From positions 1,989,001 through 2,053,000 of the forward strand of contig OX335660.1 of the NCBI GenBank assembly GCA_946894095.1: 64,000 nucleotides of DNA. The letters are read 5' to 3'. Origin of the DNA: Incurvaria masculella. Lineage: Eukaryota; Arthropoda; Insecta; Lepidoptera; Incurvariidae. A model generated the notes under the pieces. It had not been told where the DNA came from. It searched no databases and worked only from the letters and a program-made list of their open reading frames with translations. A program made the position numbers and the translations under genes. Below are positions 13,765-64,000 of this stretch, in pieces (positions within the stretch are counted from its first letter, which is position 1; every line of letters begins with the position of its first letter).

Positions 13765-13782
13765 CGGGTGACACGAGGCTAG

Positions 13783-14041
13783 TAAATCAAGCTAGTGAGC
13801 CAAGCTAGTGCTGCCAAGCTAGTAAGCTAGTGACACTAGCTTCGTGTAGACGGAACTAGCTTCGTTTACAAGCTAGTAAGTTAGTGTGGAAGCTAGCAAG
13901 CTAGTGCCTCAAGCCAGGATAGTTTAATAGCTTGGGGTTCTATTTTTCAAGCTAGTAGGCGCCCCCCACCACCCGTTTTACTATCCTGGCTTCGTTACTA
14001 GCTTCGTGTCAACCGCGAAGCTAGCGAACCTAAGCTAGTGT
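13783..14041. repeat. subterminal AAGCTAGT repeat cluster of H1
   Basis: Eight exact AAGCTAGT and three exact ACTAGCTT copies lie between the left tip and the MADF start. The right end (16550-16685) carries one AAGCTAGT and three ACTAGCTT plus several one-off variants. In the Harbinger family, subterminal repeats are bound by the element-encoded DNA-binding protein. The link to this element's MADF protein is inference. Confidence 0.8.
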
Positions 14042-14082
14042 GCAGTCGGAGAGCGTGGTGAGAGTGCGTGCAATTTGTTAAA

Positions 14083-15978
14083 ATGCCGAAATTAGCGGAC
14101 GAAATTAATTTAAAATTCGTTCAATTGTACAGAGAAGAGGAATGTTTGTGGAATGCAAGTATTCCATCTTACAAGGACAAGCAAATGCGAGACTCGTCAC
14201 TAGAAAAAATACGCGACATACTAAATAAAGATGGAATAGAAATGTCGATAAAAGAGATTAAAAATAAAATTAAAAATCTAAGAGCTACATATTGTCAAGA
14301 ATTAACAAAGATAGAAAAATCTGAGAGGTCTGGAGCAGGAACTGCAGAAGTCTATAAGCCAAAAATTATTTGGTTTGAGGAAATGCATAATTTCATAAAA
14401 AAGGTGCCAATGAAGAGAAAAACTTCGGTAAGTTATTTTAATATTATTTACTCTTTAAAATTATTTACCTTAAAAGTACTTATTGAAATATTAATAATCG
14501 TCGGCATTTTTAATTTTTCTTGTAGTTTTGTCTGAATTAACGAATCATTCTTGCTTGCCATGGTACTGCTCCATCATTGTTGAAATATCTCTTAAATTTC
14601 TCCCTTTTTTCGATAGCTGACAGAGAAGAGTGGTTACTTCCCTGTCGACTGATACTGGGTAAACATAAATTTTCCATTCTCCATGAACCGGGAATAATGT
14701 TTCCCGCTTCAATGTCTTCTTGGTCGACATCACTACTAATGCAATAAGTGCTTTTTTGCTCTTTTCGTAACCAATTATGCAGAGCACATGATGCTAGTAC
14801 AATTTTGTCTACTGTTTTTACGTCAACTGCGATTGGTCTTTGATAAACACGAAATCGGCTTGCCAATATGCCAAAGGCATTTTCTACAGTTCTTCTGGCT
14901 CTACTTAGCCGGTAGTTGTATACTTTTTCTTCATGTGTTAAATTGTCACCTGGGTACGGTTTCATAATATACGATTTTAATGGGAATGCAGCATCCGCCA
15001 AAATTACTCCGCCTTGTGGTAAAAGGTTATTTTCTAGTTGATTATATATGGAGCAATTCCTAAAAACACTTCCATCAGATGCCATTCCACAGGCGCCGAC
15101 GTCAATATAAATGAAATTATAATCGTAATCAACAATAGCCATAGGAACAATACTGAATGTTTTTTTATAATTAAAAAACACACTTCCACTGTTGCCAGGA
15201 GCTATGATTTGAACATGCTTCCCGTCGACGGCGCCATAACACGCTGGAAAGTTCCATTTCACTCTGAAACCATTTTCTATAGCTGCCCATTCTTCAGTTG
15301 TAGTTGGAATCTGTAACAATATTTTTAACAAATTTTTTATTTTCAGAACAATCAAGATTCTCCAAACAATAATAAAGATGACAACAGTGCAAGCAACAGT
15401 CAGTCATTAGAACCACCCGTAGCAGAAAATCTGTCAGAAAAGACAGTTGAAATGTCTCAACCTGCAAGCGAAATGTCGTTTATTCAAGATAAAACTTCTA
15501 AATTTATTTCCCCCGGAAGTAACATTCCGCAATTTGCGAAACCTTGCAAGTGAGTTCATTGATAAATGAAATTAAGGTGATTAAGGAGGATTTAAACAGT
15601 TCACGAGATTTTCAGGAACCAGAGCTGGATGAACATGAGATATTTGCAAAATATGTAGCAAGTCAGTTGAAAAAGCTTTCACCCGGACAGGCCATTTTAG
15701 CTAGGGATCAGATCAACGCAACACTATCCCGCTGTCGGATGTATGATTTAAACTTCGGAAATACTACATTTTCGTACCAGTCACCTATCAATTCTTCAGA
15801 CTCCAATATGTCAACCACATTTTCTTACAATAGTTCTGCAGCAAGTCCACTCTACACTAATCCACCATCACAACTACAACAGACTGAGCAACGTGATGAA
15901 CCCATCATCCATCCGCCACCACAGCAAGAGTTGGAGCAAGATGAAGATCCCATCTATCAAGCATTTCAAAATGCTTGA
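14083..15978 (+). CDS. Harbinger H1 MADF/BESS DNA-binding protein, one frameshift
   Basis: Exon 1 (14083-14427) starts at ATG in an AAAATG context rather than at the upstream GTG. It encodes a MADF domain: INLKFVQLYREEECLWNASI, IPSYKDKQMRDSSLEKIRDI, IKNLRATYCQELTKIE, IIWFEEMHNFIKK. It ends KRKTS at a GTAAGT donor, phase 0. The intron runs 14428-15346 and exon 2 begins after TTTCAG at 15347 (NNQDSPNNNKDDNSASNSQS). Near 15520-15550 the frame shifts by one base. The remaining frame ends at 15978 and holds a BESS-like motif (HEIFAKYVASQLKKLSPGQA) and a Gln/Pro-rich tail. Expected role: nuclear partner that binds the element ends and recruits the transposase. The whole catalytic transposase exon lies antisense in its intron. 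Confidence 0.82.
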
Positions 15979-16503
15979 TACATTTCTCGCCATTTATGTA
16001 GCGTAAACGTACCTACTTTAATTTGAAATAAATAAAATTCTACATACCTGTATATCTTTCTTTAATGCCTTATAAATTTCACTGCAAACTTCTGGTATGA
16101 ATCTAGATATAGTAGATCTTGAAACACGATACATGTGACTTAACTTCCTGTAATTGACACCAGATGATAGAAAATCTAGAGTTATTTCCAATTTTATTTT
16201 AGCCGGTATGGCTTCTCTCATATTAGTATTTAATTTTTGTATTTGTGGTCCCACTAGATTCAGTAAATTGTCAAAAATATTAGGTGTCATTCGCAAAATA
16301 CTCTTGAATTCGCCGGAATCCTCAGATCGCAGTTCTTTTAAAAGTAATGCAGATGCTCCATGACTATGTCTTCTTAATATCCAGGGTCTTGTCCAAGTAC
16401 GCTTTTCTTCTAGCAGAGCTAATATTTCATCTAGCGCATGTTGACACAACTTCCGAATTAACTTTCTTAGTAGAATTGCTTTTCTCTTACGCACACTGTT
16501 CAT
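14537..16503 (-). CDS. Harbinger H1 DDE transposase (HARBI1 superfamily), intact, 409 aa
   Basis: Two exons in phase 0: 16503-16048 and 15310-14537. The donor reads CAG|GTATGT and the acceptor TTACAG|ATT. Exon 1 has the N-terminal helices and an HTH (YRKLSHMYRVSRSTISRFIP). Exon 2 opens IPTTTEEWAAIENGFRVKWN and carries the DDE core: CYGAVDGKH (about residue 181), GMASDGSVF, ILADAAFPL, and RRTVENAFGIL with the Glu. There are no internal stops or shifts, and the length is typical of HARBI1-type nucleases. It should cut and join element ends together with the MADF protein. The intron contains the last MADF exon on the other strand. Confidence 0.92.
15311..15346. promoter_or_regulatory. bidirectional splice-acceptor spacer of H1
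   Basis: These 36 bases start with CTG and end with CAG. Read on + they are the acceptor of MADF exon 2 (TATTTTCAG); read on - they are the acceptor of transposase exon 2 (ATTGTTACAG). The two exons on opposite strands therefore begin directly at its two borders. The same layout occurs at 37033-37115, 43462-43500 and 63905-63994. Confidence 0.8.
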
Positions 16504-16691
16504 TTTTACGTATACGTGTTATCAGGTTAAGTACAACTCACTACTGACTTGACTAGCTTGAAATTTCCTAGCTTCGTGTAGACAGCACTAGCTTGGTTAC
16601 AATCCAGGCTAGTAGGTAAGCTAGAAACCAAGCTAGTGACCCCTTACTAGCTTACTATCCTAGCTTCAAAATACTAGCCTCGTGTCACCCG

Positions 16692-35472: not shown

Positions 35473-35479
35473 AGGCGGG

Positions 35480-35705
35480 TCCACACCGGACGATCCATCG
35501 CGCTCCGATCGCGCGCGGCAGCAGCGCGATCCAAAGATGCAGGCGGTGTGGACGTGCCGCGCGCGATCCATGCGCACGTATTGGAGCGCGCGCTCCCTAC
35601 CTCGCGCGATCCGTGTGCGGTCGGTTTTTGTGCCAGCCTCAAAGGTGCCTCAGTTGCGTGATGCGCGCGGTGTGGACGGTTGTGTTGGTTCGCGCGATCC
35701 ACCTC
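35480..35705. repeat. subterminal CGCGATCC cluster of H2 (left)
   Basis: Four exact CGCGATCC copies plus GATCCATCG and CGATCGCGCG lie before the MADF start. The right end (38325-38471) has eight GGATCG and three CGATCC. The motif is unrelated to that of H1 or H3. Confidence 0.75.
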
Positions 35706-35708
35706 GCC

Positions 35709-37538
35709 ATGGACATCTCAGAAAGTCGCCGTTTGATATCGCTTTATAAAGAATTTAAATGTTTATGGGATCCCAAAGATTCTAATTACACCAATAGAGG
35801 TGTTAGAGATGATGCTTGGTGTCAGATTTCTCGTGAAATGGGGAATAAGTCGATCGAGAACCTAAAGAAAAAAATGCGATCTCTGGCGGGAGGCTACAGA
35901 AGGGAGAAATACAGAGAGAAGCAAAGCCGTATAACTGGATCCGGTAAGAAAACAAAGCTACTTTTTATCTGTAGGTATTAAAATTATATATTTTATTATA
36001 AGTAATTACATCATAATATTTACTGTGGATTTCACGTGATTTCGCTTTTTACATTTAAGCTGTTAGAAATACACGTGGTTATTTTAATGAGTAACTTGTT
36101 TATTTCAGGTGCTCAAGATACATATAAATCAAAGTGGTTTGCGTATGATGACTTCGACTTTATGGCGGATAAAAATGAACCCGGAACCACACGCGATACA
36201 TTGGAACATGTGAGCTATTAGTTTACTGATATTCATTTTGCCAAACTATTGTATGGTTTGTAACAAAGTGTCTTGCTAAGTGGGACCGTATTGTAGTGGC
36301 ATTTTCTGTTGCTCTTCTTGGTACGACGGCCATCGGTTGTAGCGATTGTGATGGCGGTTCATTTCGCCAGCTTCCAGGTATTACATCTCCATTCTCCTGT
36401 ACTGTATCAAACGTTCCTGGCGATATAAAGTTAGGATTACTGCGTAAGTAGTTATATAGATGAACCGTTGCCAGCACGACTTTAGTCGCAGTTTCTGGTT
36501 CCAAAAGCATAGGTTTACGCAGGACTCTGTAGACAGAACTAAGTACTCCAAACGCGTTTTCAACTACTCTACGTGCTCTTGACAGTCGGTAGTTGAAAAT
36601 TCTTTCACAAGAACCCCTTTCCCGTGTACCATCGTATGGTTTCATAGTATAATCATTAAGCTGAAAAGCTTTATCACCTAGTATATAATAGGGTACCTCA
36701 ATTTTATAGGGAACTTGCAATATCTCCGGTGGAGGAATATTTAGCTCTTTTTTTTCAAGTTTTTTATATAAATTTGTGCTTTTGAACACGCCTCCATCTG
36801 ATATTCTGCCTTTAGTCCCAACATTCACATACAGGAACCTATAATTTGCATCTACTAATGCAAAAAGAACAATACTAGGAAATAATTTGTAATTATCAAA
36901 GTCGTTGCCACTATTAAAAGGCGATTGTATAGCGACGTGTTTGCCGTCCATCGCTCCTATCACGTGTGGGAAATTCCACTTATTCTCGAATTGCTGAGAA
37001 ACTGTACGCCATTCTTCTTTAGTTGACGGCACCTGAAAATAAAGGAGATCTTAATTATAATATAAAGCTGAAAATAAGAATAAGCAGTAAATAGTAATAA
37101 TAATTGTTGTTACAGGTAGAATCTGATACGACTAAAGGGGAACTTGAAGTTAATACTACAGTGAGCGAAAACGAGAACAGTAACATTACTAGTGACACAC
37201 AACCGGAGAGAGCCAACCACCACACAGATCAGAGTAGAGAGCAGAATGATCAGAATGCACAATCCAGTGTCCAAACAACAAACAAAAGAACAAAAAAAAG
37301 AAAGAAAACTACTTCTAATAATGCAGATGACATATCAGATGAAACTCTTTCAGAGGCTTTCCAACTTCTGCAACAATGTGCTCAGCCACCACAACCGGAA
37401 ACTGATTCTTACATTGCTTTCGGGCAGTATATATCTACTGAATTGCGGAAATATGATGCAGTAACATTAGTTAATGTCAAAAATGCTATATGCCAAGTTA
37501 TTTTTCAAGCTGAAGAACACAGGAAGATATGGGGATAG
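35709..37538 (+). CDS. Harbinger H2 MADF/BESS-like DNA-binding protein, three exons, 252 aa
   Basis: The ATG at 35709 (CGCCATGG) begins exon 1 (35709-35943): MDISESRRLISLYKEFKCLW, DDAWCQISREMGNKSIENLK, KKMRSLAGGYRREKYR. Exon 2 is 36109-36209 (AQDTYKSKWFAYDDFDFMAD), completing the MADF domain. Exon 3 begins at 37116 after TTACAG and holds an acidic/polar linker, a Lys-rich patch (KRTKKRKKTTSNN) and a BESS-like end (IAFGQYISTELRKYDAVTLV). All junctions keep phase. The frame stops at 37538 after EEHRKIWG. One base out of phase, a Ser/Gln/Pro-rich frame continues to 37737, so a single extra A near 37520 may have trimmed the C-terminus. Expected to bind the element's subterminal repeats. Confidence 0.85.
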
Positions 37539-38297
37539 CAATTATGGATATTACACTAATTCATACCCTGGCACACCAATAGCATCCACTTCATCACAGT
37601 CCCAGTCTCTACAACCTCAAAATTATCCAGCTCCAATTCCACAGACATCACCGTCTGCTCATCTAGCCTCCAATTCATCGCAGTCCCAGTTTCTGAAACC
37701 TCAGGATTATTCACTTCCACAGTCACCACCGAATTAAATAAGTACCTACCTATATCATGTTTTCAAAAAATAATTAATAATTGTAAACATGTTACTTCTT
37801 TAAATTATGATTGTAATACACTACTTTTTTATTGAGTAATAAAGTATGGTTTTACTTACCTTTACATAATCATTTAACAGGTCAATGATGGCTTCACAAA
37901 CTTCAGGAATAATTATCGATATAGACTGTTTGGAAATGCGGAACAGATACTGCAAACTGACGTACGAATCTCCAGTTGCTAAAAATCTCAATGTTAGTAA
38001 TAATCTTTCCTTCACAGTAATGGCATCTCTATAATTTGTATCATTCTTTCTTAGCTTGTTATTTAATAATGAACACAATATCTCAAATTGATTAGCATTC
38101 ATTCTTGCAAAATTGTGTTCAACTTTATCTGACACTAACTCTGCGTACAGCTGAGTCCCAGATTCCAAGCGATTTTTGTAAATTTGTTTCACCCAAAACC
38201 GTCGTTTTCTTTTTTGTGATTTTTTGCGCAAGCATTTAAGCAAAATAAAAGTTACTGCTGCAACGGCAAGACGCCGCCGTTGTACGTGTGACTCCAT
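36223..38297 (-). CDS. Harbinger H2 DDE transposase (HARBI1 superfamily), intact, 415 aa
   Basis: Exon 1 is 38297-37860, starting at MESHVQRRRLAV; the longer frame upstream has no ATG. Its donor is AAG|GTAAGT. Exon 2 is 37032-36223 after TTTTCAG, in phase 0. Exon 1 has a Lys/Arg-rich N-terminus and an HTH (LQYLFRISKQSISIIIPEVC). Exon 2 has PSTKEEWRTVSQQFENKWNF, IGAMDGKHVAIQSPFNSG with the first Asp, RISDGGVF, ILGDKAFQL and RRVVENAFGVLSSVYRVL with the Glu. No stop or shift. Exon 2 is entirely inside MADF intron 2, and its stop lies 13 bases from MADF exon 2. Confidence 0.94.
37033..37115. promoter_or_regulatory. bidirectional splice-acceptor spacer of H2
   Basis: 83 bases beginning CTGAAAATAAAGG and ending GTTGTTACAG. 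It gives a CAG acceptor to the transposase exon on - (at 37032) and to MADF exon 3 on + (at 37116). See 15311-15346 for the same device. Confidence 0.8.
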
Positions 38298-38471
38298 ATC
38301 GTACAAGAGTTAGACTGGCTGAATCACGGATCGCCTTAGGATCGCTTGGAGCGCATATTTGGGATCGCAAGTTTCCAAGAGTGGATCGGCATAACACGAT
38401 CCACGATCCACGCTCCGCGATCCTGGATCGCGGATCGCGGGATCGATGGATCGTCCGGTGTGGACCCGCCT

Positions 38472-40118
38472 ATTGGATACACGCATTCTCGGGGCGATAC
38501 GGAGTGCGGTTGGAAACACTCTATGTTTTAAAAACAAGCCTAAATCCAAAACTTAAAAACTAAAAAGTTAAATTATTGTTGCAACCGGCTTTAGTCCTAG
38601 TTACAGCAAGCCTTAGTTATAGTTTACACTCAGTCGCGCATTCTCAACTCAGAGATGCCGATGTAATTTGAAAAATAAAACCCACGATAACATGTAATGT
38701 AGTTTCCGCCTCTCACCCCACCCCCCACTCTTCCCTAGCAAGCTTCGTCTCCCCCCTACCTCACCCTACCCCTTTTCCCATCCTAGCCTGTAAGGTATTT
38801 TAGAAGTAGGGATACGTAAGGTTATTTGAATGTTGATGAATGCAAGTGTTTCCTGTCCCCATCTCCTTACAACTTATTGTTATCGCGTCTTTTGTTTTTC
38901 GTAAATTAAAGTCAACATCACTTTAAGTGCGCTCACACTTTAGCGTGTGCCCACGATTTCTTAGTCCCGTAACTATTTCTCTTATCCCTGCTACTTAAAC
39001 CTATGTATATATTTTTTTACCATTCTACATATATGTGTATATATTTATTTCTATTTGACTACCTTATTTTAAAACTTTGCGCTCCTTGACTCTTCTGTCC
39101 TCGTAACTCGAAACTTAATGCTTGGTAGCACGTCAATCAGCTGACGGGTCATTGAACTCTTGTAATTTCGTTGCGGGTGTATTCCGTTACTTTGCGTTTT
39201 ATTTAAAAACAAAATAAATTTAGCTCTAACTTTATTTTTGAATTATTTTAGTTCATGTTTCCTTTTAATGTAAACATAGTAACATCGTAACGTTGGTCAT
39301 AAAAATAAACTCACCCTTTTCTTTCAACTAAATTTATTTGGTTTTATAAATTGTAAACATAAAAAAATTTATAATAATAATTAGACTTCAACAAAATCTG
39401 CGCTCTTATGATGTTATTACTATGTCGCCTTTACCTTGTTTATGTTTAACGCTTTAGTTAGTAAAGTGAATGCACCTTTTCAATAAATTCCAATATAACA
39501 TTCAAATATCTTAGCACAAAATGTCTAATAAAAAACAAAGTTTTATATTATTAATATTATTTTCTCTTTAACAACGTATATGGGCTCTGGTTTCCTGTTT
39601 GTGTTAGTTATAAGGTGTTACTGCTTTAAGATTTCAAAAGTATCTATGTAATGTTTGTTTGGTTAAAATTATCTGTAATTTGATATTGTTCTGTAGAAAT
39701 TGAAAAAATATTTACATACGTTAGTACTTCTCTGGGCCTGGCTTCTGAACTTCTGTGAATCTTCTCGTGTTCATAAACTAAAAACGTCTCATGGTTATTT
39801 TGTATAATTGTCACTGTACTAACTAGCTTTATTTAGGTTTCTCTTTTCAAAACTCATGTTACTGTCACATTGATAGTTTATGTTACAGTCTTAATGACAT
39901 TTTGGTCATTTCATTAATGTCTAGTATACTTGGCATAATTGTATTTGTATTAACTAACTTTATTTATGTTTATCAAAACTTTGCCAATGTTACCGTCAGT
40001 TTGATAGTTTTTGTTACTGTCTTAATGACATCTTGGTCATTTCAATTAATGTCCATTGTACTTCAATTCTTTTTTCTTTTTTTCCTTTTTCTTTTTGGTT
40101 AGTTAATTTAGGATGTGT
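38472..40118. other. non-coding interior of the LTR element, right part
   Basis: Continues the interior after H2. No protein-like frame. A C-rich stretch lies near 38710-38780 and a pyrimidine run near 40070-40097. The bases just before the right LTR (GTTAGTTAATTTAGGATGTG) are a poor polypurine tract. Confidence 0.7.
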
Positions 40119-41455: not shown

Positions 41456-42071
41456 CGTTACGGCAAGACCTTCAACGTGTACTAGATCTTGGACCAGTAA
41501 AGATGTAAGGTGGTCTAACCTTTCAACTTTTACAACCTGCAATGGTAGACCGAGGTCTCATTCTGAATAGGGATCCGCCAAGTGCAAGATATGCAATCGT
41601 TCTAGCCAACGCAATCAAGCCGATGAGAAATGATTTATTTCTATCAAGGTCGATGAGTGAATCTTTACAGTTGAAGCCATGCATGTGGCGCTTCGATGCC
41701 CTTTAAACAAAATAATAAATGTGTTTATACGTAGGAATAGCACGAGGTTGATGGAGCTGGGGGTGGGCACTTCTTCCCTGGACGCACCGAAGGGTGGTAT
41801 TCGCTTCAGTAGTAGCTAGGTAGCATCATTACTGAAGTTAAGTAATTCAGTTTATAAGTTTGTATCGTGTCTCTATGAAATTTTAGTACGGCTTGTCCAA
41901 GGCTGTTCTTCTAGTTTATTTAACTGAGTTTCCCTTAGGGAAATATTCCTGTTTATCGTAATTGAACTATATAGATTTGAGTAAAACTAAACAAGATTGG
42001 TTCTGAACTTTTAACGCTCTTTACTGGAAACATTGATATGGTTGATTTATTACTAATCTGCATTAGCAACT
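41456..42071. other. no gene; gap between LTR element and H3
   Basis: No recognised frame. ACT at 42069-42071 is the left target duplication of H3. Confidence 0.5.
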
Positions 42072-43461
42072 TATGCTCCGTACGCACATACGGTTTTACT
42101 CGACAGTTTTACTCGATATCGAGTAAAACTTACCGTGTGGACGTAGCTCGAAGCGTTTTTACGGCTCGATTCGAGCCGGCTCGAAGGTATTCGGAGCTCC
42201 TAATTTCTGCCGAGTAAGTTAGAGCGAGCCTTCGAGTCCGGCTCGCGTGTGTGGACGCGTCTTCGAGTAACTCGCGAGAGTTCATCGAAGAATTTATCAA
42301 TACTTATAGAGAGTGTGATGAGAGACCTTTGGAAGGTCACTTCTAAAGAGTATTCCAATAAAATTAAAAGAAGTGAAGCGTACGAAAAACTCCTCAATCT
42401 CGCAAAACAAGTAGACAAAGATACCACGAAGTGTATCGTGGCATATAAGTGGTAGTGGCACTAAAGACACCTATGTGCCCAAATTGTGGTACTACGAACT
42501 TTTATCATTTTAAAATGATTCTGGAAGCCATGCATTGTCTACGGCATCGAACATTGATTCCGATGGTGATATTAATACACAGGTACGTACGTCCCATTTA
42601 TAATTATTCACTCATAGTTAATAACACATTTTAAGGTACATATTAAATCATATTTTCTTGTCATGCTACAGACCCTTCGTTGTTAAAAAAAAGTGAGTGA
42701 AATCGTCTCGTATGTCTTTTGCTGATCGAGTAGAATTTTTCACTTGGCTAGTAGGTAACGCCATCATATTTTCGTTCGGTCTACTGCCAATGTTTATTGT
42801 GCCGGTATCGAATGATTCTGAACCAAAATCGTTTGCACAGTAAGTATGTAGATGTTGCATGACGTCTCAAAAATTATGCAACACACATGATGCCTTTACA
42901 ATTTTTGTAATGTTTGTGGTATTTACAACCTGAATGGGTGTATGGAAAACACGAAATCTGTTGGCAAGCATACCAAAAGCATTTTCCACTACACGACGCG
43001 CTCTGCTAAGACGATAATTATATATTATACGATCATGGTTAAGCAGCTTGGAATTGAAAGGTTTCAAAAAATCGTTTCTTAACGAAAACGCTTCATCTCC
43101 AATAAAAACAAAAGACAATTCCTTGTTACTAGGAGGAAGTTTTTCTGGCAATGGTAATGGCAATTTTTCAGCTTTTAATAGCTTATAAAACGTTGTGTTC
43201 GCTATTAAGCCACCATCAGAAATTCGTCCGTTGCAACCAACATCAATCATAAGAAATTCATAATTAGCGTTCACTATGGCCATTAGTACAATGCTGTGAT
43301 AACCTTTATTATTATTATAATTATAAAGTAAAGAACCACATCCAGGTCTTGCCACTTGCTCTGATGTGTTTCCCGTTGACGCTACCCAAACAGTGAGGGA
43401 AATTCCACCTCAAAGCGAAATCATGAGCGACGGCTTTCAATTGCTCTTGTGTGGTTGGGAA

Positions 43462-43500
43462 CTGAAACAAAAAATTGTTTAGTTAATTAAATTGTTCCAG
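43462..43500. promoter_or_regulatory. bidirectional splice-acceptor spacer of H3
   Basis: 39 bases beginning CTGAAACAAAAAATTG and ending ATTGTTCCAG, with transposase exon 2 on - at its left border and MADF exon 2 on + at its right border. Confidence 0.75.
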
Positions 43501-43541
43501 GATAGTATGATTTCCGATGCCAGCAGCATCGAGCCAACTTC

Positions 43542-43752
43542 CTCGTCGCCATCAACATCGTTCCATGAAACGAATATTCACCATGGATTAGCGTCACCGC
43601 CGACTGCGGCATCGTCGCCATCAACATCGTTCCATGAAACGAATATTCACCATGGATTAGCGTCACCGCCGACTGCGGCATCGTCGCCATCAACATCGTT
43701 CCATGAAACGAATATTCACCATGGATTAGCGTCACCGCCGACTGCGGCATCG
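43542..43752 (+). repeat. three perfect 69-bp tandem repeats in the MADF linker of H3
   Basis: The unit begins TCGTCGCCATCAACATCGTT and ends CCGACTGCGGCA. Three consecutive copies are identical where compared, and the length is a multiple of three, so the 23-residue repeat stays in frame. Identity of the copies in an otherwise decayed gene implies recent expansion by slippage or unequal exchange. Confidence 0.9.
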
Positions 43753-43993
43753 TCGGCATCAAGCCTCTCGGCCATCGAATGCTACAAAGAAAATTGAAAA
43801 TCCTGATGAAATTCTCACATCCATTAATAAAAAGCTTAATTCAGGGCTTTTTGATCACACAGAAGGTGAATATGACGCAGTCGGAAAAAATATCGCTGCT
43901 AAGTTGCGCAAATTGCCAGATGGAATGAAAATAATAGCTGAAAAGTTATTTTCTGATGTCATTTTGAAATTTACAAGAGTGCGCCTTTCTTAG

Positions 43994-44781
43994 CTTCTAT
44001 CTGGATATCAGGGATGGTAGAGTGGATTTTTAGAAGCATTTTTGGTCAAGGAACATGGGCGCGGAAACGAAGTTTTCTATCCAAAATATTTTTTTGAAAA
44101 TATGAAATCACTCATATTCAGTCAGCAATATTAGCGTTCGTTCTATATTCCGACGCGAACAGGTCATGTTCACAAATTCATATTGCAAGTAAAATGTTGC
44201 CAACACGTAATTTCCCATAATTAAGGGTAAAATTAACAATTGCTGTACTCGTATTGCTACAAAACCGACTTAGCCGCCCCGACATTACATGTTGGTGTGC
44301 GTCATCCCTAGAGTGTTTTTTAGAAGTGCGGAGACGAAAGCTCGCGCAGGAGGTCCCGAGCGTGGCGAGCGGTACGAGACCGTAGCCGCGTGGCGGTGGG
44401 AGGTCGCGAGCGATGCGAGCGGGCGACCACCCCGCTGCGGCGAAGGTCGAGTGCGGTCGCTTAAGCGAAGGGGCCGACCAAGCGAGTCTTTCGGCGTAGC
44501 CATCAACTTACCTGCCTGGGCTTCGAGGTGCATTTAAAAAAGGCTTAAACCTCACGGAATATATCATTTGGCGTCTGGCAACACTTTTCGGTTGCAATGT
44601 TGGCAGCCTTGTGTTCGTGTACTTGCATGCATGCAATGCAACCCTTTAGTCTGTGTCCGTCCTGTGTCGTTCGCGTTACTTCGTCCTTCGTTGTCGCTAT
44701 ACACCGAGACACAGCTAGCATCTACGCCGCTACGCATTCAACAGGTTGACTCCGCTAACGCGTCGAGTCCCTTTGTTTGTC
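43994..44781. other. non-coding sequence upstream of the Merlin transposase
   Basis: Includes a GC-rich, GCGAGCG-repetitive block (44330-44500) that produces frames on both strands without domains. Merlin terminal repeats could not be identified by eye. Confidence 0.45.
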
Positions 44782-45854
44782 ATGGCGGAACAGGAACAGG
44801 CTGCGGGGCCTGCTGCGGGACCTGCACCGCGTGTTCTGAATGAGTTTGAAGAAGCTGAAACTGAATATGTGCCGCGCCATCTCTACTCGTGCGAAATAGC
44901 CGAGATGTGGAACATTCCTCGGATAGTTCGTGAGTTAGGGACGCGCGAACAGTGCATTCAGTTTGCGGAGGAGCAAAGACTTATCAAGGACGTTAACATT
45001 TGCCGTGTTCATCGTGTGCCCATGGTCAAAACTTTGGAGGGGAATAATACCGTGGGATCGTGGTCGTGCCGCAAGAGGTTGTGTCGCAATACTGTTCGAG
45101 CACGTACTAGTCGCGCGACAGGCACGTGGTTTGAAAACGTGCATTTGAGCTTGCCACGTGTATTTTATTTGATGTGGTGTTTTGTTCACCAACTATCTTA
45201 CGATTTGGTCAAGCTGAACGACCTTGATATGCAGCATGGGGTTTTATCGGCACGAACTATAAACGACTGGTACAATTTTTGCCGTGAGGTGGTCGTTAGT
45301 TTTTATCTACAACTGGAGCAAGAAGTTGGACAGATTGGAGGCCCAGGCAAAATTGTCCAGATCGACGAGTCCAAATTTGGGCACAGAAAATATCACCGAG
45401 GTCGCCGAGTCGAAGGGCATAGGATTTTGGGCATGATAGAGGATGGCTCTGAAGACTTGCGGTTGGAGCTATGTATTTATAATGACCGTAGCCAAGAAAC
45501 GCTGCTGCCCTTAATTCAAAAGCACGTGCGGCCCGGAACGGAAATCCACACCGATTGTTGGCGTGCGTACAACTGTTTGGCGGCAAATGGGTACGTGCAC
45601 AAAACCGTCAACCACAGTGATCCGGACAGAAGCCAACGATTGGGAGGGATGACGGGACGCACACGCAGCGGATAGAGTCGCAGTGGCGCATCGTAAAATA
45701 TTTTTTCCGTGTTGGTGGTGGCGGAAGTTTTCACGACGAACAATTCACGGACAAAATTGTGGAATACCAATGGCGTCGTTACGTTATACGGCGGAAGAAG
45801 GACCCCTTTGTGGCGCTTTTGGACGCGATTAGGATAGAATATCCGTTACATTAG
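44782..45854 (+). pseudogene. Merlin (IS1016/ISXO2-type) DDE transposase, one frameshift
   Basis: The ATG at 44782 (GTCATGG) begins MAEQEQAAGPAAGPAPRVLN, then LGTREQCIQFAEEQRLIKDV, NNTVGSWSCRKRLCRNTVRA, SRATGTWFENVHLSLPRVFY, GGPGKIVQIDESKFGHRKYH with the first catalytic Asp, and IHTDCWRAYNCLAANGYVHK with the second. Near 45625-45645 the frame shifts. The resumed frame gives the Glu segment (QRIESQWRIVKYFFRVGGGG) and runs to a stop at 45854 (AIRIEYPLH). It moves Merlin elements by cut and paste. It lies within H3, in what would be the transposase intron. Apart from the shift it is nearly complete. Confidence 0.87.
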
Positions 45855-46198
45855 GTGATAAGTGAGTGGCGCAATTGGACGCGGTGGTAGTTATTAAGCG
45901 GATATTGCGCAATGGACGCCGTGTGGTGGTGATTGCAAATGGCCGCCGCGCGCCGTTTCGTGTGAAATTTTGAGGTCAGTGTTTTCATATTTTTCATGGT
46001 TTCTTGGGTTTCCTCACCTAATTATCAATTCAGAATGATGCATTTTTGGGTTTTTCGTAGGTAATTTTTATATATTTTTTTTTTGCAGTTTTCGTGGCGC
46101 ACTCTTGTAAATTTTTTCCAAGTAATGATTCGCATACCTGCTGACTAGTTTATTTTGTGTTTAATTAAGACTTTACTCGTCTAAATAAAAATAATTAC
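45855..46198. other. sequence between Merlin and H3 transposase exon 1
   Basis: GC-rich at first (GGCCGCCGCGCGCCGTTTCG at about 45940), then AT-rich. No frame of note. Confidence 0.4.
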
Positions 46199-46801
46199 CT
46201 TAATGCATTCTTTTTTCAACACATTGTAGATAGCTTCACATGTTTCGGGTATAATCTCCGAAAGAGATTGCTTTGAAATTAATGCAGAATACTGTAGGCA
46301 TGTGTATGTTCTCCCTGTAGCCAAACAACGCAACGTGACAGCCAATCTTTCATGAGCTGAGATAGCTGGTCTCATGCGTGTAACTTTTTTTTCAATAATA
46401 GGAGTAACCATGAGAAGTAACCGTTTATATAATTCTTCTTGCATTCGCAAATAATTTTTGCAGTCTGGTGCACTTTATAACGTATACACAACTTATAACG
46501 TTCACATGGCTTAAATGATCACGTTGTTTGAACACTTTCTTCACCCAGAACTCCTTCGATTTTTTCACTTTTTTCTTTTTCATAATTCTGCCATTAGAAT
46601 ATGCTGCGAGTCCTGCTAAACACAGCCACTGCACTTTTCGCCTGTCGGACATGGTTGGCTCGCGAGGTTTCAGACGCAAATGAACATCGAGCCACTCGAT
46701 ACAATTTTACTCGAATATGTGGACAGAAGGGCGAGCCTTCGAGCCAAGAAAGTAAATGTTACTCGATCGAGTAAAACCGTATGTGCGTACGAAGCATAAC
46801 T

Positions 46802-48569: not shown

Positions 48570-48977
48570 CGGAGTTTTGGTCTACACTATCGGTCTGTTG
48601 ATTGCTCAATTTTTAGGTCAATTGCTAGCCACGAGGTGATTGGTATTGTTATAATTTTGACTGCTCTCAATATTGACCAGTGCGATTACCAGTTCTTATG
48701 GACGTTTATTTTGAATTAATTATTAGGGGTGTGCCGACCATCATTCGTCCAATGTACCGTGGTGGTGGTGGTACCGACTTGGGCAGGATTGATAAATTCT
48801 TCAATAATTTTCAAAGTTGTAATAAAAGGTTAATTTTATGATTTTTTAATTACAAATACCTATACGAAAATATGTTGTTTCTGAGTTTGCTGTCTTTAAA
48901 CATTATCCCAAAAATATAACTCTGCTTATATTGTTGTTTTGTAATCTAATATTTTTCAATTTACCAGGGGCAATCAA

Positions 48978-51377
48978 ATGCCAATGGCAGCAGCTGCAGC
49001 TGAATCCACAAGAGAAGTGTGTCCTCCAGCTGCAATGGAAGAAGCCCCTGCAATGTCATGCCAGCATGTGATTGCATCAACTTCAAAGATACCTACAGAA
49101 ACTTCTTCTACACCGAAGAAAAAGAAAATTAGGGCCCTTGAACCTGACACACCCAGAAAAAAAAAGCTACTGGAACGGCTTAAGAAAACCAAATGCACCA
49201 TAAAATCTCTAAGGAAGAGTGCTAAGATAGTTGAAAATATTGATTCTCCTTTTTTGAAGCAATTTGTATTGTCTGCTTTTGCGAATCAACGCAAAATGCC
49301 ACTGGGAAGACGTTGGACCACGCTCAACAAAATAGCTGCGCTCTCCGTTTTTAAACGTTCTCCTAAAACTTACAGGTACCTTAAGCATATCATGCCCTTA
49401 CCAAGCATAAAAACTCTGCACAATGTGTTGCGAAACATCCCCATGGAGCCAGGATTGCAGAAAATCGTCATGGAACATTTAAAATCGATGGCCGAAAAAA
49501 GTGACGATAATAATAAACTTTTTGCCCTGTTATTTGATGAGATTGCACTCAAACCTCGTTTAATTTATAATGAGGTCACTGATCAAGTTGATGGTTATGT
49601 GGATGTAGGACAGTCATCAGATGGATGTGGCAGGTCTGCTGCCTTGGCAGATCACGCTCTTGTGTTTATGATTCAAGGACTCTATAAGAAAAAAAAAACA
49701 ATCCATCGCCTATTACTTGGTGAATGGCACAATATCATCCACTAAATTGTATGCATTGATAAAATAAGTAATTCGGTCTATACATTCATTAGGTCTTAAA
49801 GTTCTGACCACAGTGTGCGATCAGGGCCCTACCAATAGAGGTGCTCTGAAGCTACTTAAGCAGTATACAGGCAGCAATGAAAATGACATTTTTTTCTTAA
49901 TCGATGACACAAAAATATTTATAATGTTTGACATTCCCCATTTGTTTAAGTCCATCAGAAATAACTTTCTTAACAGCGGAGAAATGATTTTTGATGGAAA
50001 AAAAGCCAAATGGACACATTTGGCGATGCAGAGAAGAAAAATAGCGATTCTTTTTTGTACTTGAGCAAAATCTCTCCTATACATGTGAACCCTAAATTTC
50101 GTACTAAAATGAAAGTTAAATATGCGGTACAAGCTCTTAGTAATACTGTGTCTGCTGTTTTGAAGTTGATGTCAAAAATAAATAAAGGCACCACATATGG
50201 GAGTGAATTGTTAGAAACTGCGATGGTTATTCAAAGCTTGGATAGGTTATTCGATTACACTAATAGTCCTTCTTGTTAATCCAACATAAAGGCAGGTCAA
50301 CGAGTTAGTGTTTCGGCTAAGACGGACCACGTAAAAGTTTGGCCTGAATATCGAAGACAACTATACGACATGAAATTTGTTAAAGCAGGGACCCAGATCA
50401 ATTAAAAAAATGTGCAATGTATTAAGGGCTACATAACTTCTTTGCAAAGTCTTCAAGACATATTCCATCATGTACACTCTCTTGGATTTAAATTTTTGAA
50501 TCTCCGGCAACTGAACCAAGATGCACTGGAAAATTTATTTGGATTAATACGCCAACATAGCCCTACAAATAAAAACCCTACCTGTGCACACTTTAGAGCC
50601 GCTTTAAAAACCTCAATTTTATCCTCTGCAACTGTACCACACAGCCGAGGTTCAAACTGTGAAAAAGACAATAATTCATTATTACTCAACTTCCGCAACT
50701 TAGTTTTTCAAAGTGGTACGGATACCAGTCGGGAGGACTTCCATGAAGTTAACCTCCATGTCGAAGCAAATGCTGAAGAAAAAACATTTTCCTCAAGTTT
50801 ACAGGATGTAGATGTAAACACAGAACAAGAATATCCTGTCTTGAGTTTAGAAGATGAAGATTTCTTTCTTCAATCAGAAAATGATTTCAGTACAATTGAA
50901 GAACAACCACTAGTGTATGTAAGCGGATACCTTGCCTCAACCATATTAAAAAGTAATGTTTGTAAAGATTGTAAAGCTTGCCACAATTACCTGACAACTG
51001 CTGATCCAGCAAATCCTATGTACTGTTACATAAAACTTAGGGAGTGGTGGAAGGACCATACAGCTTTAACTTATCCATCTATAAATCTTTGTCGGTAAGT
51101 TGAATCTGCTGTTCACTTATTTGAAAACGATGTGTGTTCTCGTCTACACGAACCCAACATTTCTCAACTCCTAAAAACATTAATACTATCCAGGTGTGAC
51201 CTAAACTGGTTAAACTGTTCCCAGCACTCCAAAGCCATTATTACTGCTTTACTTACACGCTTATGTCTTCTCATAATACGGCGGCAATGCCAAAGAATTA
51301 ATCAAGGCTTAGCATTGCGAGAAGAAGAACTAAGTAGCAAAAATAAAAAAGCTCAACAACAAAGCATAGCAATGTAA
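48978..51377 (+). pseudogene. P-element-type (THAP9-like) transposase, broken
   Basis: Begins after a possible TTTACCAG acceptor with a low-complexity Ala-rich start. TPRKKKLLERLKKTKCTIKS (coiled-coil linker), RWTTLNKIAALSVFKRSPKT, YRYLKHIMPLPSIKTLHNVL and LFALLFDEIALKPRL (DE motif with the first catalytic Asp) follow, then VTDQVDGYVDVG. Further pieces after breaks are VCDQGPTNRGALKLLKQYTG, FDIPHLFKSIRNNFLNSG, LNQDALENLFGLIRQHSPTN and LVYVSGYLASTILKSNV. That is the domain order of P transposases, which use GTP as a cofactor. Breaks lie near 49745-49800, 50050, 50280-50410 and 51098. No THAP finger was found upstream. Different sequence group from the intact P-type element at 57 kb. Confidence 0.82.
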
Positions 51378-54073: not shown

Positions 54074-57000
54074 CTAAACGTACTTATGACTAATCAATCT
54101 CAAAACCGTAGCGCAAAAATACCAGTTAAGTATTTTTGCACGTACAGGTCTAGGCAATATAGTAAGTGGGGTGGTACACTGTGCCGCAGTCGATTGTTCT
54201 GGTAATTCTGTGGATGATGAGATTGTTAATGGTCGCGGGCTGAGGGTGGGACTTCGGACAACCGCAGGTAACGTTCTGGTAGGAGATGTTTCCCCCATTG
54301 TTTCCCTAGGTGGTGGAGACATGGCATCCGGAACCATATCCGGTATTGCAACATTAGAAAATCGCGGCCTACGTATGATTTGATCTATATGTTTATTCGC
54401 GATTTGACCGTTCCCTTGCCTCACTGCATAATTCCGTGACCCTAGCTTGTCTATGACCTCTCCAGTTGCCCATTTATCGCCCTTGCGATACTGGCGAGCC
54501 CAAACCTCCTCACCTATTTGTACCTGTCTATGGGTGCCGCCGGCGGCCTCCACTTGCCGCGCTTACATGTCTCTTACTCGAGCACCACGGTCCGGCAGCA
54601 ACAGATCGAGTCGTGTGCGGAGCGTGCGTCTCTGTAGTAGCATGGAGGGTGATGCTCCCGTTGTGCTGTGCTCCGAGTTCCTGTACGCCAGCAAATAACT
54701 TTGTAATGCAACCTCTATATCCACCCCTTCTCGATCTGCCTTCTTAATGGCCCGTTTACATAGTTTGACTGCATTTTCAGCAGCTCCATTCGATGATTGG
54801 TGATACGCTGCACACAATGTATGTTTTATTCCATTTAGTTTTAAGAAATTTTTAAATTCTGTGCTATCGAACGGGGGTCCATTATCTGAGGCGATCTCTG
54901 CACATATACCAAAACGAGCAAACATTTCTCGGAGTATCGCAATAACAGCCGGCGCTGTCGTCCGGCGCATGTGAAACGCTTCCATCCACTTGGTGGTGGC
55001 ATCTATTACAATCAAAAAGACCTGACCTTTATAAGGGCCCAAGAAATCCACGTGCAGTCGGGTCCACGGGTTAGGAGGGTAACTCCACGGCTGAGGCGGG
55101 GCGTGAGGTGGAGCGTCGGCTTCCGCGTTGCACGCCGCACACTCCCTGCATGTCCGCTCCACGTCCGCATCTATGCCGGGCCACCACACATAGCTGCGCG
55201 CGACCCCTTTTGTCTTCGCTATGCCCATATGTCCGCTGTGCAGCTCTTTCAAAATTTTTTCTCTATGAGATGGTGGTATCACCATTCGGTATCCCCACAT
55301 TATGCAGCCTGAGTCAAGATACAGTTCATGTCGACGAATGAAATAAGGCTTAAGATTATCATCACATGAATTAGGCCAACCTGAACGTAAACAACTTCTT
55401 ACTTTACATAGGTCAATGTCTTTCTCCGATGCCTTCCTTATGTCTTCGTGACCCACCGGTAATGCATTCTCAACAAAGTTTGCGTATGTCTCTTCTGTGC
55501 GCTGCGACTCGGCCTTTACTATTGCCGGCAGTCTCGACAAGGCATCAGCGCAATTTTTTTTTGTAGGTACATACTCAACCTGATAGTTGTATGCCGTCAA
55601 AATCACCGCCCATCTCTGCAATCGGCTCGCTGCCATGATAGGTATACCAGCTTTATCCCCAAAAATTGATACAAGTGCCTTATGGTCGGTCCTCAGAACA
55701 AACTTCCTTCCATATAGATACTGATGGAATTTTCTTACCGCAAAAATGATCGCTAGTGCTTCTTTATCGATCTGGGAATATGCCTTCTCTGCGGAGTTGA
55801 GAGTGCGAGACGAGTACGCCACCGGGCGTTCACCCTCGGGTGTCATGACGGCGATCACGGCGCCCACTCCTACGCTTGAGGCATCCGTGGTTAAGATCAG
55901 GTCCTGCTCCACAGAGTAGTGTGCCAATACTGTGCTGGAACCCATCAGATTTTTTATGTTTTCAAAAGCATTTTGACATTCCTCTGTCCAGATGTATAAA
56001 ACCTCTTTTTTTAGCAAATTGTATAATGGACATAAAATTGTACTAATGTTGGGAATGAACTTAGAATAGTACATTATAAGGCCTAGAAATGCTCTCAATT
56101 CAGACACGTTTTGAGGTGCCGGAGTTTTCTTAATGCAGGACACCTTGTCGGGACATGTGTGTATGCCCTGGGCGCTAACGACGTAACCCAAATAAGTAAC
56201 AGAGTCTGAAAAAAATTGTACATTTACTTTGATGCACCTTGAGTCCGTTCCTTGACAACCTCAAAAATACTTTCTCTAACGTTTGTATGTGATCGGCATC
56301 ATTCTTCCCAGTAATTATGATATCGTCCAGAAATATACCAACGTTTGGCAGGTCCCCAAAAATTTTCTCTAACTGCCTTTGAAAAATACCAGGACTTGAG
56401 GAAAGACCATAGACAAGTCTGTTGTACTGGAATAACCCTTTATGTGTGTTTATAACTGTATATTTCTTCGAAACATCATCTAACTCAAATTGGGCGTATG
56501 CTTGCGAGAGATCTATTTTTGAAAAATTTTTTCCTCCTTCTAGTTTGGTCAGCACGTCTTCTACTCGTGGTACAGGGAAACTGTCAACTTCTAATACCTT
56601 GTTTAAAGTTATTTTATAGTCCGCGCATATGCGGATGCCACCGTCTTTCTTCATGACCGGCACAATTGGTGTAGCCCAGTCAGAGGTCTCCACCGGGGTC
56701 AACACCCCGTCCTTGACGAGCGTGTCGAGCTGAACTTCTACCTTATTCCGTAAAGCGTACGGCAAGGTCCTCGCCCTCATGAATACTGGTCGCGCTCCCT
56801 CCCGCACGTGCAAACCGACCGTGCCACCAATGTACCGCCCCAGCTCACCAACAAAAACTTCAGCGTATCTGGAACTGAATACCTTTAAATTAAAATCGAC
56901 ATCCTGCTTAGCTTCCACACTGTGGTATTCAACCACTGGTATTTTTATTTTTAAAAGGCTAATCCAGTGACGCCCTAAAAGAGAAGTTTTCCCTGCTTGC

Positions 57001-57095
57001 ACCACATATAAATCAAGCTTTTCCTTAATATTTTTGTACTGTACCATGGGTTTAATCTTTCCTAAAGGTTTAACCTCAGAGGAAACATAAACCAT
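54074..57095 (-). pseudogene. gypsy pol: protease end, reverse transcriptase, RNase H, integrase
   Basis: The first frame (57095-56175) carries the end of the protease region and RT: VFMRARTLPYALRNKVEVQL, DWATPIVPVMKKDGGIRICA, FSKIDLSQAYAQFELDD, VGIFLDDIIITG (catalytic DD box). At about 56210 a change in a T run shifts the frame. The second frame (56191-54563) has RNase H (TTDASSVGVGAV, DKEALAI, LRTDHKAL), the integrase zinc finger (HSGHMGIAKTKGVA...CREC) and the DDE core (LHVDFLGPYKG, ASDNGPPFDS, NAVKLCKRAI). An in-frame stop at 54563-54565 separates the C-terminal GPY-like part (VQIGEEVWARQYRKGDKWAT), which runs to 54074. These enzymes copy RNA to DNA and integrate it. Two lesions plus the upstream insertion inactivate it. 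Confidence 0.92.
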
Positions 57096-57243
57096 AGAGC
57101 GAGCGAACTCGGGTGGGAACAGTAGACACGAGTGAGAACATCATATCGGTGCGTTCGATTTGGCAAGCAGTCGCGATCGAGTCCGAGCGACGAGCGCCTG
57201 TCAAGGATTGCGGAGTATTTTTTCACTGTTTTAAGTAATAACC

Positions 57244-60200: not shown

Positions 60201-60551
60201 GGCCTCGTGTATCCATCAGAGGATGTCTTTGCGATTTGTAATGCCACAGAAACAATAGTAAAGACAGCTTTATGTTGTTTGGACGGGAATTATGACAAAA
60301 AAGAAGCCGACCTTAACACTAAAAGTATGGTTATTAAGACCTTGAAATTATTTATTGGAAAAGATATTTTCAGCGTTCTCCATAGTCATCTGTTTGAACA
60401 AGAGCCTTGCAGCAATCATCTAGTGCATCTCCTAAGTGCGGTCATCCAAAAATATGTTGACATAAGGGTAAAGTATTTAGTTCGTCGCTCCAATGTAAAG
60501 GAAACAAAAAGGCAGGTCTACAACAAGCTAACCCATTTTAAAGGACAATAG
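57244..60551 (+). CDS. THAP-domain P-element-type transposase (THAP9-like), intact, 874 aa
   Basis: Exon 1 (57244-57323, ACCATGG start) encodes MVKCVVKVCKKDTRKHTKLK and ends CG|GTAAGT. Exon 2 begins at 58007 after TTTTCAG and restores the codon. Together they form a THAP zinc finger (C-x4-C, then KVCSTHF and DAVPTLF at residues 1 to about 95). A basic coiled-coil region follows (RKRKLKKEIIRLEDIAKRRR). The RNase-H-like catalytic part contains VTDEMSIRL (Asp near 279), TFDGCPANI (near 370), FLDPCHMIKLVRN (near 410) and QDHLEILFSVIRSHGGFNNN (near 609). 848 codons of exon 2 are open. Length is close to THAP9 (about 900). The intron is 683 bp with no other gene. It should cut and insert its own element. 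Confidence 0.93.
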
Positions 60552-62772: not shown

Positions 62773-64000
62773 ATGTCGTTCAATACAGAAGAGTTTATTA
62801 GTGCTGTTCAGGCTAGAACTCCTATTTGGCAAAGTAAACACAGTCATCATATGAACAGAAATGTTCTTAATAAACTATGGAAGGAAATTGCTGGATTGTT
62901 TCCTGATATGGAGGGTGAGTCATTTTACTCACTATACATATTATTATGCTGGAAATATGATATATTTGTAGGTATTTTAAACTTTTTATTTCCTGAAGAC
63001 TACAAAAGATACATAATACAAAGGCGACTACGTGTATATTAAACGATTGTTTTCCCAAAAATATTTCGTGAATAAATTCCGAACTTGTTTAGCCCGATTT
63101 GATGGATTGTTGTTTCTTCCAGTTCTAGTTTGTCGCCTTTGGTGTCGAGTTGGAATTGTGAACTCATTATCACAATCGTAACCATCTGTATCAATAACAA
63201 TATTATGCAATAAGCAAGCAGTTTTTATAATCAGGCGTGCATGTTTAACATCAGTTTCAATAGGTTTTAACAAAACTCGCCATTTATTGCATAAAATTCC
63301 AAATGCACACTCCACGGTTTTTCTCGCTCTTGACAATCTATTGTTAAAATTTTCTCTCTCTTGATTCAATGTTCTTTGTGGGTATGGACGCATTATATAT
63401 TCTTTAAGAGGATAAGCTTCATCGGCTAATATAACATATGGAGCTGTAATATTAGAATTAGGTAATGTTCTTGGTTCCGGAATATTAAATGCACCTCTTT
63501 CGAGTAACCGGTTCAGGGACGAGGCATTAAATGTACCGCCGTCGCTTTGCTTTCCTCTATCTCCCACTTCAATAGTTAAAAATCTTTTCCTCGCATCAGC
63601 CACAGCTTGCAAAACAATAGAGAAATAATGCTTGTAGTTAAAAAATGCCGATCCTGATTTTTTAGGTCGTTTAACCCTACAAAGTTTACCGTCCAAACTG
63701 CCAATGCAGTTAGGAAAGTGCCACATCTCCCTAAAATCTGAAGCAATATTCATAAGCTGGTCTTCAGATGGCTGTGGCATGTGGACATTCAAATTGTTTT
63801 TCCAAATAGCTTCACAGGTACTATAAACGATCTCAGACACAGTACTAACACCCATACGAAAGCTATATGCCAAAGATCGAAATGCCAATCCAGTGGAGAG
63901 ATATCTGAAACATAATAAAAAATGTAATTATAATGTAAAACTTAAATATATTTACACTAATCATCAACACTAAACAATATTTCTGATTTTACAGAAAAGG
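62773..64000 (+). CDS. Harbinger H4 MADF protein, exon 1 and start of exon 2 (partial)
   Basis: Exon 1 (62773-62914) starts MSFNTEEFISAVQARTPIWQ and continues HHMNRNVLNKLWKEIAGLFP: the first half of a MADF domain with the conserved pattern of a residue-rich start, IW, and a Leu/Trp-containing helix. It ends at a GGTGAGT donor. The acceptor TTTTACAG at 63987-63994 would start exon 2 at 63995, six bases before the window ends. The intron between them contains the whole transposase catalytic exon on the other strand. Exon 2 identity is inference from the layout of H1-H3. Confidence 0.65.
63028..63904 (-). CDS. Harbinger H4 DDE transposase, catalytic exon (5' part outside window)
   Basis: The exon begins at 63904 after ATGTTTCAG and runs to a stop at 63028. 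It encodes YLSTGLAFRSLAYSFRMGVS (HTH), REMWHFPNCIGSLDGKLCRV with the first Asp, GDRGKQSDGGTF, VILADEAYPL and ARKTVECAFGILCNKWRVLL with the Glu, then a basic C-terminus. No stop or shift in 292 codons. Unlike H1-H3 the intron lies before the HTH, not between the HTH and the first Asp, so intron position is not fixed in the family even though the interlocked layout is. Confidence 0.88.
63905..63994. promoter_or_regulatory. bidirectional splice-acceptor spacer of H4
   Basis: 90 bases beginning CTGAAACATAATAAAAAATG and ending TTCTGATTTTACAG, an acceptor for the transposase exon on - and for the presumed MADF exon 2 on +. Confidence 0.65.

Follow-up and report, generated by a model that had tools for sequence, protein, structure and literature searches.

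PIF/Harbinger transposons that carry a Myb/SANT/MADF gene beside the transposase gene have been described in Medicago, fish and insects. Harbingers need both proteins, and the linkage and expression of two genes in a cut-and-paste element have been little studied. Here we describe four Harbinger elements (H1 to H4) in a 64,000-nt stretch (the window) of the lepidopteran Incurvaria masculella (contig OX335660.1). These elements have in common with the known systems a DDE_Tnp_4 transposase, a MADF partner and, in H1 to H3, terminal inverted repeats (TIRs), with a 3-bp target-site duplication (TSD) in H2 and H3. In H1 to H3 the two genes face each other from opposite strands and are interlocked, with the predicted last exon of each lying in an intron of the other. 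Among the Medicago elements, whose transposase genes contain introns, orf1 lies upstream of the transposase gene in five and downstream in six (PMC2213677). These elements differ from H1 to H3 in having either gene order, and the accessible part of that account makes no mention of an interlock. Insects also have co-domesticated PIF/MADF pairs (APLG1/APM1, APLG2/APM2 and LPLG2/LPM2), which combine the same two protein families from one insertion. For example, the co-domesticated pairs of Anopheles gambiae are 97 and 179 bp apart, with APLG1/APM1 annotated as one transcript, and LPLG2 and LPM2 lie close together in most species (PMC9710019).

Opposite-strand genes that share DNA, as those of H1 to H3 do, also occur in the convergent overlapping gene pairs (cis-NATs) of plants and flies. 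The partners in cis-NATs are host genes, whereas those of H1 and H2 are the genes of one transposon, each holding the other's last exon. In Arabidopsis, spliced genes are over-represented in overlapping pairs (1,723 of 1,912, versus 69.1% of all genes), and for 146 genes the antisense transcripts end no more than 10 bp from an intron-exon boundary (PMC1175971). In Drosophila, the small interfering RNAs (siRNAs) of converging 3' regions extend as far as the poly(A) site, and Blanks-dependent siRNAs arise from nascent convergent RNAs, introns included (PMC7144943). Our literature search recognised no earlier account of the interlocked layout, most subscription papers and Repbase being outside its reach.

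Results

Interlocked exons in H1 and H2

We predicted the exons of H1 to H4 from reading frames and splice-site motifs, which placed the sites to the base. Along the + strand, both H1 and H2 begin with the first part of the MADF gene (+), followed by transposase exon 2 (-), the last MADF exon (+) and transposase exon 1 (-), and the predicted exons never overlap (Table 1). The last exon of each gene lies wholly within an intron of the opposite gene. In H1, the MADF intron (14428-15346) is 919 nt long and the transposase intron (16047-15311) 737 nt, and their splice sites are all GT-AG (TCG/GTAAGT, TTTTCAG, CAG/GTATGT and GTTACAG; the slash marks the exon edge). The exons fill 2207 nt of the 2421-nt coding span and leave gaps of 214 nt. 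A sequence-only reading of the window had reported this interlock in H1, and our analysis bears it out in its coordinates and the absence of coding overlap. The same reading placed the H2 transposase stop 13 bases from a MADF exon, and this exon is 1b, an additional exon found between MADF exons 1 and 2 of H2.

Once spliced, the transposase is open throughout in H1 (409 aa) and open in H2 (415 aa). The last MADF exon of H1, which we take to encode a BESS-like C-terminal part, has the position given in the sequence-only reading, but its frame is not open throughout (Table 1). The homologous frame of P0147, from another contig, stays open where that of H1 breaks. We also considered a mini-intron in this exon (15550-15599, GTGAGT...AAACAG) and rejected it because the same bases are coding in P0147; the H1 frame is simply broken. 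The H2 MADF frame has an early stop and diverges near its C-terminus from P0001, its relative in Bicyclus anynana.

Both H1 and H2 are PIF/Harbinger elements with perfect TIRs. The ends previously given for H1 (13765 and 16691) coincide to the base with the outer limits of its inverted repeat; comparison of its flanks (GCC and AAC) found no TSD. H2 does repeat the layout, as had been claimed, but the interval originally assigned to it (35709-38297) runs from start codon to start codon and the element itself spans 35473-38471. A 3-bp TSD was found, therefore, in two of the three elements with both ends in the window, H2 (ATT) and H3 (ACT). The transposases of H1, H2 and H4 match PF13359 (DDE_Tnp_4) with E values of 2e-28 or better, and PF10545 (MADF) is matched by H1 and H2, with the H4 exon only at the cut-off. 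Residues D181, D258 and E295, presumably the catalytic triad of the DDE transposase, are invariant across 31 aligned proteins. The proteins of the elements are as highly diverged as the earlier reading had them, with identities of 164/378 aligned residues between the transposases of H1 and H2, 113/267 between H1 and H4 and 104/289 between H2 and H4.

Table 1. Features of the four Harbinger elements (window positions; strand "." where none applies).
Feature	Position	Strand	Basis or remark
H1 PIF/Harbinger element	13765..16691	.	perfect 20-bp TIRs (CGGGTGACACGAGGCTAGTA)
H1 MADF exon 1, MADF domain PF10545	14083..14427	+	Euphydryas editha models P0144-P0146 end exon exactly at 14427
H1 transposase exon 2 (DDE_Tnp_4, PF13359)	14537..15310	-	within MADF intron
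H1 central 36-nt gap	15311..15346	.	a predicted 3' splice site on each strand, back to back
H1 MADF exon 2	15347..15978	+	within transposase intron; frame broken near 15541-15547
H1 two overlapping AATAAA	16027..16036	+	11 nt before transposase exon 1 edge
H1 transposase exon 1	16048..16503	-	full-length relative P0028 aligns through junction
H2 PIF/Harbinger element	35473..38471	.	perfect 28-bp TIR, TSD ATT
H2 MADF exon 1	35709..35943	+	frames, splice sites; P0001
H2 MADF exon 1b	36109..36209	+	P0001 reads through same joins
H2 transposase exon 2	36223..37032	-	within MADF intron; antisense 36329-36448 belongs to Pararge model P0003
H2 MADF exon 2	37116..37538	+	P0001 match continues to 37734 in another frame
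H2 AATAAA	37838..37843	+	16 nt before transposase exon 1 edge
H2 transposase exon 1	37860..38297	-	frames, splice sites
H3 decayed Harbinger	42072..46798	.	TIR 31/32 bp, TSD ACT; second transposon within transposase intron
H3 AATAAA	46184..46189	+	9 nt before transposase exon 1 edge (46199)
H4 MADF exon 1 (first part of MADF domain)	62773..62914	+	domain search, splice sites
H4 transposase exon 2	63028..63904	-	frames, domain search, splice sites
H4 possible start of next MADF exon	63995..64000	+	acceptor TTTACAG; pattern only

A decayed and a half-visible copy

The exon order had also been reported for H3, and it is indeed the same, with the MADF donor at 42582/42583, transposase exon 2 starting at 43461, MADF exon 2 at 43501 and transposase exon 1 at 46652-46199. 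This copy is decayed, however. The frame is broken in each of the four exons and the transposase intron holds a second element with an ISXO2-like transposase open reading frame (PF12762, 318 aa, 44719-45675). As previously noted, the left half of the layout is visible in H4, which runs past the end of the window, and a would-be MADF acceptor (TTTACAG/AAAAGG, 63994/63995) sits where expected. Its introns, by contrast, are not positioned as in H1 to H3. By eye, the H4 transposase intron lies upstream of theirs by about 42 codons and has phase 2, rather than phase 0, and the MADF intron falls inside the MADF domain. The acceptor sides of the two genes are 36 (H1), 83 (H2) and 39 (H3) bases apart, and the H4 pattern lies 90 bases from transposase exon 2. 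If the right half of H4 conforms, both introns moved while the interlock stayed.

Protein models outside the window

We checked the predicted joins against annotated proteins, which are gene models rather than transcripts. The H1 MADF gene has nine protein matches, among them three Euphydryas editha models (P0144, P0145 and P0146) that join 14427 exactly to 15347. Residues 1-115 of these models correspond to 14083-14427 and residue 116 onwards to the sequence from 15347, and the models later diverge from H1 exon 2. Among the 23 matches of the H2 MADF gene, the near-identical P0001 (cluster of 30 sequences) spans all three predicted exons. Furthermore, four of the five annotated transposases tested against H1 (P0028, P0033, P0027 and P0026) cross the junction without residue loss, and the fifth (P0035) is one residue short there.

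Two models bear on the order of exons across strands. In a Pararge aegeria gene model (P0003), H2-type MADF exons 1 and 1b lead into a stretch of 40 residues with a 90% match to the + strand at 36329-36448, the antisense of H2 transposase exon 2. The join resembles a prediction error and would be most simply explained by a transposase exon placed after the MADF exons on the opposite strand. The other model, P0038, comes from a different contig and matches the H1-type transposase exon 2 (window 15355-14540, 98%). Its reading begins upstream of the exon and takes in the 36-nt gap together with 9 bases of the antisense strand of MADF exon 2, which is thin evidence.

The closest full-length relative of the H1 transposase among the 120 matches listed is from the beetle Onthophagus taurus (P0028, 73% over 409 aa), which also has a MADF relative (P0149). 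H1 MADF exon 1 is 99-100% identical in the Euphydryas editha models. Horizontal transfer of H1-type elements is possible. H2-type MADF proteins or pieces, with 64-97% identity across 38-98% of the query, are also spread patchily and were matched in Bicyclus, Pararge, Spodoptera exigua and the firefly Lamprigera yunnana.

Poly(A) signals at the edge of the opposing exon

In H1, H2 and H3 alike, a + strand AATAAA, the putative MADF poly(A) signal, stops just short of transposase exon 1 (Table 1), a regularity that this analysis adds. When the preceding 101 bases were shuffled 5000 times with dinucleotides kept and the 6-base donor fixed, the chance of a gap of 16 nt or less was 0.030 (H1), 0.035 (H2) and 0.014 (H3). 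As background, AATAAA occurred within the same reach at 166 of 9086 sampled window positions. The 16-nt limit was chosen after seeing the data and the product of the three chances (1.5e-5) is, therefore, optimistic.

Cleavage occurs 10-30 bases past a poly(A) signal. Under this rule, the estimated overlap of the two mRNAs at the MADF 3' end would be 0-19 bases in H1, 0-14 in H2 and 1-21 in H3. At the 3' end of the H1 transposase gene, the ATTAAA motifs at 14514-14509 and 14442-14437 would give an overlap of 0 or 1-21 bases, respectively, and the AATAAA at 62990-62985 in H4 no overlap with MADF exon 1. By arithmetic from the poly(A) positions, the unspliced H1 RNAs would overlap by about 1.6 kb.

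Age of the layout

The transposase intron interrupts the same codon boundary, in phase 0, in H1, H2 and H3. We built a FastTree phylogeny of 122 sequences, midpoint-rooted, after dropping fused, tandem or short-matching rows (P0024, P0025, P0031 and P0059); H3 was represented by one 180-residue open piece and the deeper order was not used. Each of the four transposases has a separate clade, with supports of 0.999 for H1 (27 members), 1.0 for H2 (11), 0.998 for H3 (10) and 1.0 for H4 (10). The layout thus predates those clades or arose more than once, which suggests that it is old or recurrent.

Discussion

The exon order, splice motifs, intron phase and position, poly(A) motifs and TIRs can be read directly in the DNA of these elements. 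They point to two-gene PIF/Harbingers with inward, convergent and interlocked genes, and we consider it likely that the interlock became established a single time, ahead of the divergence of H1, H2 and H3, and was retained thereafter. From the sequence we infer transcription and splicing as follows. Transcription of the MADF and transposase genes would start at opposite ends of the element and proceed inwards, with the two genes overlapping along nearly all of their length. RNA polymerase II would have to traverse the opposite gene to make each pre-mRNA. Splicing would then discard the last exon of the opposite gene as antisense intron, using two back-to-back 3' splice sites within 36-83 bases of each other mid-element (H1 to H3), one short stretch serving both genes. 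The MADF transcript would be cleaved at the near edge of transposase exon 1, either just outside the exon or a few bases within it. One stretch of DNA would thus yield two mRNAs that are hardly complementary to each other. The interlock was probably retained because leaving it in single steps would destroy both genes. We saw no single deletion or inversion that escapes it without breaking a gene, which makes a frozen accident the most parsimonious interpretation. We rejected space saving as the main reason for the layout, reasoning that a tail-to-tail pair of intronless genes needs about equal DNA.

Several observations weigh against a single, conserved origin. The best-preserved elements are two only, H1 and H2, and both have a frame-broken MADF gene. 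H4 has its introns at other positions, and a single frozen origin needs intron movement to accommodate it. Scans for such a locus found none in viral contigs (four scans) and none in genome contigs in a first scan; a second scan of genome contigs retrieved L001 and L002, short contigs titled as bacterial assemblies that are presumably eukaryotic contaminants. Both hold Harbinger transposases without an intron at the site. L002 belongs inside the clade of H4, and L001 in a larger group with H4 and H3, so intron loss or repeated gain must be invoked. A Pfam search at E 0.05 of one other L001 frame and two L002 frames gave no MADF match. Similarly, 20 of 22 transposases from raw contigs cross the site in a single frame and align with all H1 residues between 141 and 165, and some of them carry an insertion of one or two residues; P0038 and P0126 fail to do so. 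These 22 were picked from the 120 listed of 3006 matches and some sources may hold RNA, which makes them weak evidence. None of the matched proteins and contigs from outside the window showed the right half of the layout. In addition, the accessible text on the domesticated insect pairs describes them as side by side, unlike H1 to H3 (PMC9710019). The interlocked layout is not, therefore, universal in two-gene Harbingers, and the earlier description of it as old and conserved stands for H1 to H3 in the window but not for the two outside contigs or the domesticated pairs. The cockroach gene BPLG2 is reported to consist of two exons separated by an intron of 900-1500 bp in every species except one (PMC9710019), and to call this intron a relic of an interlock would be a guess.

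The chances seem about even that the layout is a neutral relic, the product of one rearrangement that was then inherited, with its introns, poly(A) sites and spacing explained by compactness and without benefit. The shared position and phase of the transposase intron in H1 to H3 agree with this, as do the small gaps in the H1 coding span. The antisense ends near intron-exon boundaries of 146 Arabidopsis genes (PMC1175971) also speak for it and parallel the poly(A) positions in H1 to H3. On the other hand, a layout that is easily lost would not be expected to persist in three separate clades and, with shifted introns, in half of a fourth. What is odd is an anatomy present in separate lineages. 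It is doubtful, though conceivable, that the interlock is instead a product of selection and ancestral to the MADF-Harbinger radiation in animals; it would make both proteins dependent on splicing, leave the mature mRNAs unpaired and keep co-evolving genes together. Equally doubtful is its corollary that unspliced nuclear RNAs pair fully and neither recombination nor internal deletion can separate the genes. H4 would then represent an independent re-creation of the layout or introns moving under constraint.

A narrower adaptive explanation, in which the interlock keeps mature mRNAs from pairing, spares them the cytoplasmic siRNA pathway and makes both proteins splicing-dependent, is unlikely. 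The short overlaps estimated at the MADF 3' end (0-21 nt in all three elements, versus about 1.6 kb for unspliced H1 RNAs) and the poly(A) signals just before the opposing exon would fit such a role, as would the fly siRNAs that reach up to the poly(A) site of overlapping 3' ends (PMC7144943). However, nascent convergent RNAs also yield siRNAs in flies, introns included (PMC7144943), and expression data from overlapping Arabidopsis pairs argue against dominant degradation of double-stranded RNA (PMC1175971). The layout would largely escape siRNAs from mature 3' overlaps yet feed those from nascent RNAs, which makes the silencing idea at best half right. Furthermore, a non-overlapping tail-to-tail pair is a simpler way to avoid a duplex, and H2 may have an exon overlap of 101 nt. 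The consensus AATAAA of its transposase gene lies only beyond MADF exon 1b (36104-36099), and its use would place the 101-nt exon in the antisense 3' untranslated region of the transposase mRNA. Weaker H2 alternatives are an AGTAAA at the transposase stop codon and a CATAAA inside exon 1b. Thus, the little complementarity after splicing that the sequence-only reading foresaw is supported at the MADF 3' end of all three elements; near-zero mature complementarity is predicted to hold for H1 and may fail in H2.

A splicing switch is quite improbable. In this scheme, unspliced or early-ended transcripts encode N-terminal DNA-binding parts that could act as repressors, as truncated products do in P elements. 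Intron-retained reading would yield transposase N-termini of 161 aa (H1) and 158 aa (H2) and a 150-aa H1 MADF product, but a short read-through is expected of any intron. Least probable of all is an error of exon prediction that would leave the genes shorter, simply overlapping or dead: the exons are predicted only and the MADF frames are broken in the H1 and H2 copies, but annotated insect proteins join the MADF exons as predicted and most of the annotated transposases align through the junction.

Any advantages of an interlock, whether through little mRNA duplex, co-inheritance or splicing control of the transposase, are speculative. Recombination between the two genes is rare in fish Harbingers (PMC9179366), and the interlock would give a physical reason for this if fish elements share it. 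The layout also offers a natural setting in which two siRNA routes could be told apart cleanly, with unspliced RNAs predicted to pair fully and mature mRNAs to pair barely.

Other features of the window

Each element has its own subterminal motif. AGCTAG occurs in H1 in 13 and 7 copies at 13768-14082 and 16504-16691, with 1 copy inside, and GATCC in H2 in 5 and 11 copies at 35473-35708 and 38298-38472, with 4 inside. In H3, CTCGA is present in 9 and 6 copies at 42066-42285 and 46653-46800, with 2 in 42286-43990. These motifs may be candidate binding sites of the cognate MADF proteins. Within the left end of H1, the terminal repeat recurs in inverted orientation at 13996-14015 with 2 mismatches, perhaps an old internal terminus or a nested derivative.

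Transposons are densely packed in this region. Retroelement pol frames (RVT_1, RNase H and integrase) extend over 54563-57140, and fragments of a P-element-like transposase are found at 48945-51098. Another P-element-like transposase is encoded by an 864-aa open frame at 57957-60551 with THAP, P-element HTH and TNP-like RNase H domains.

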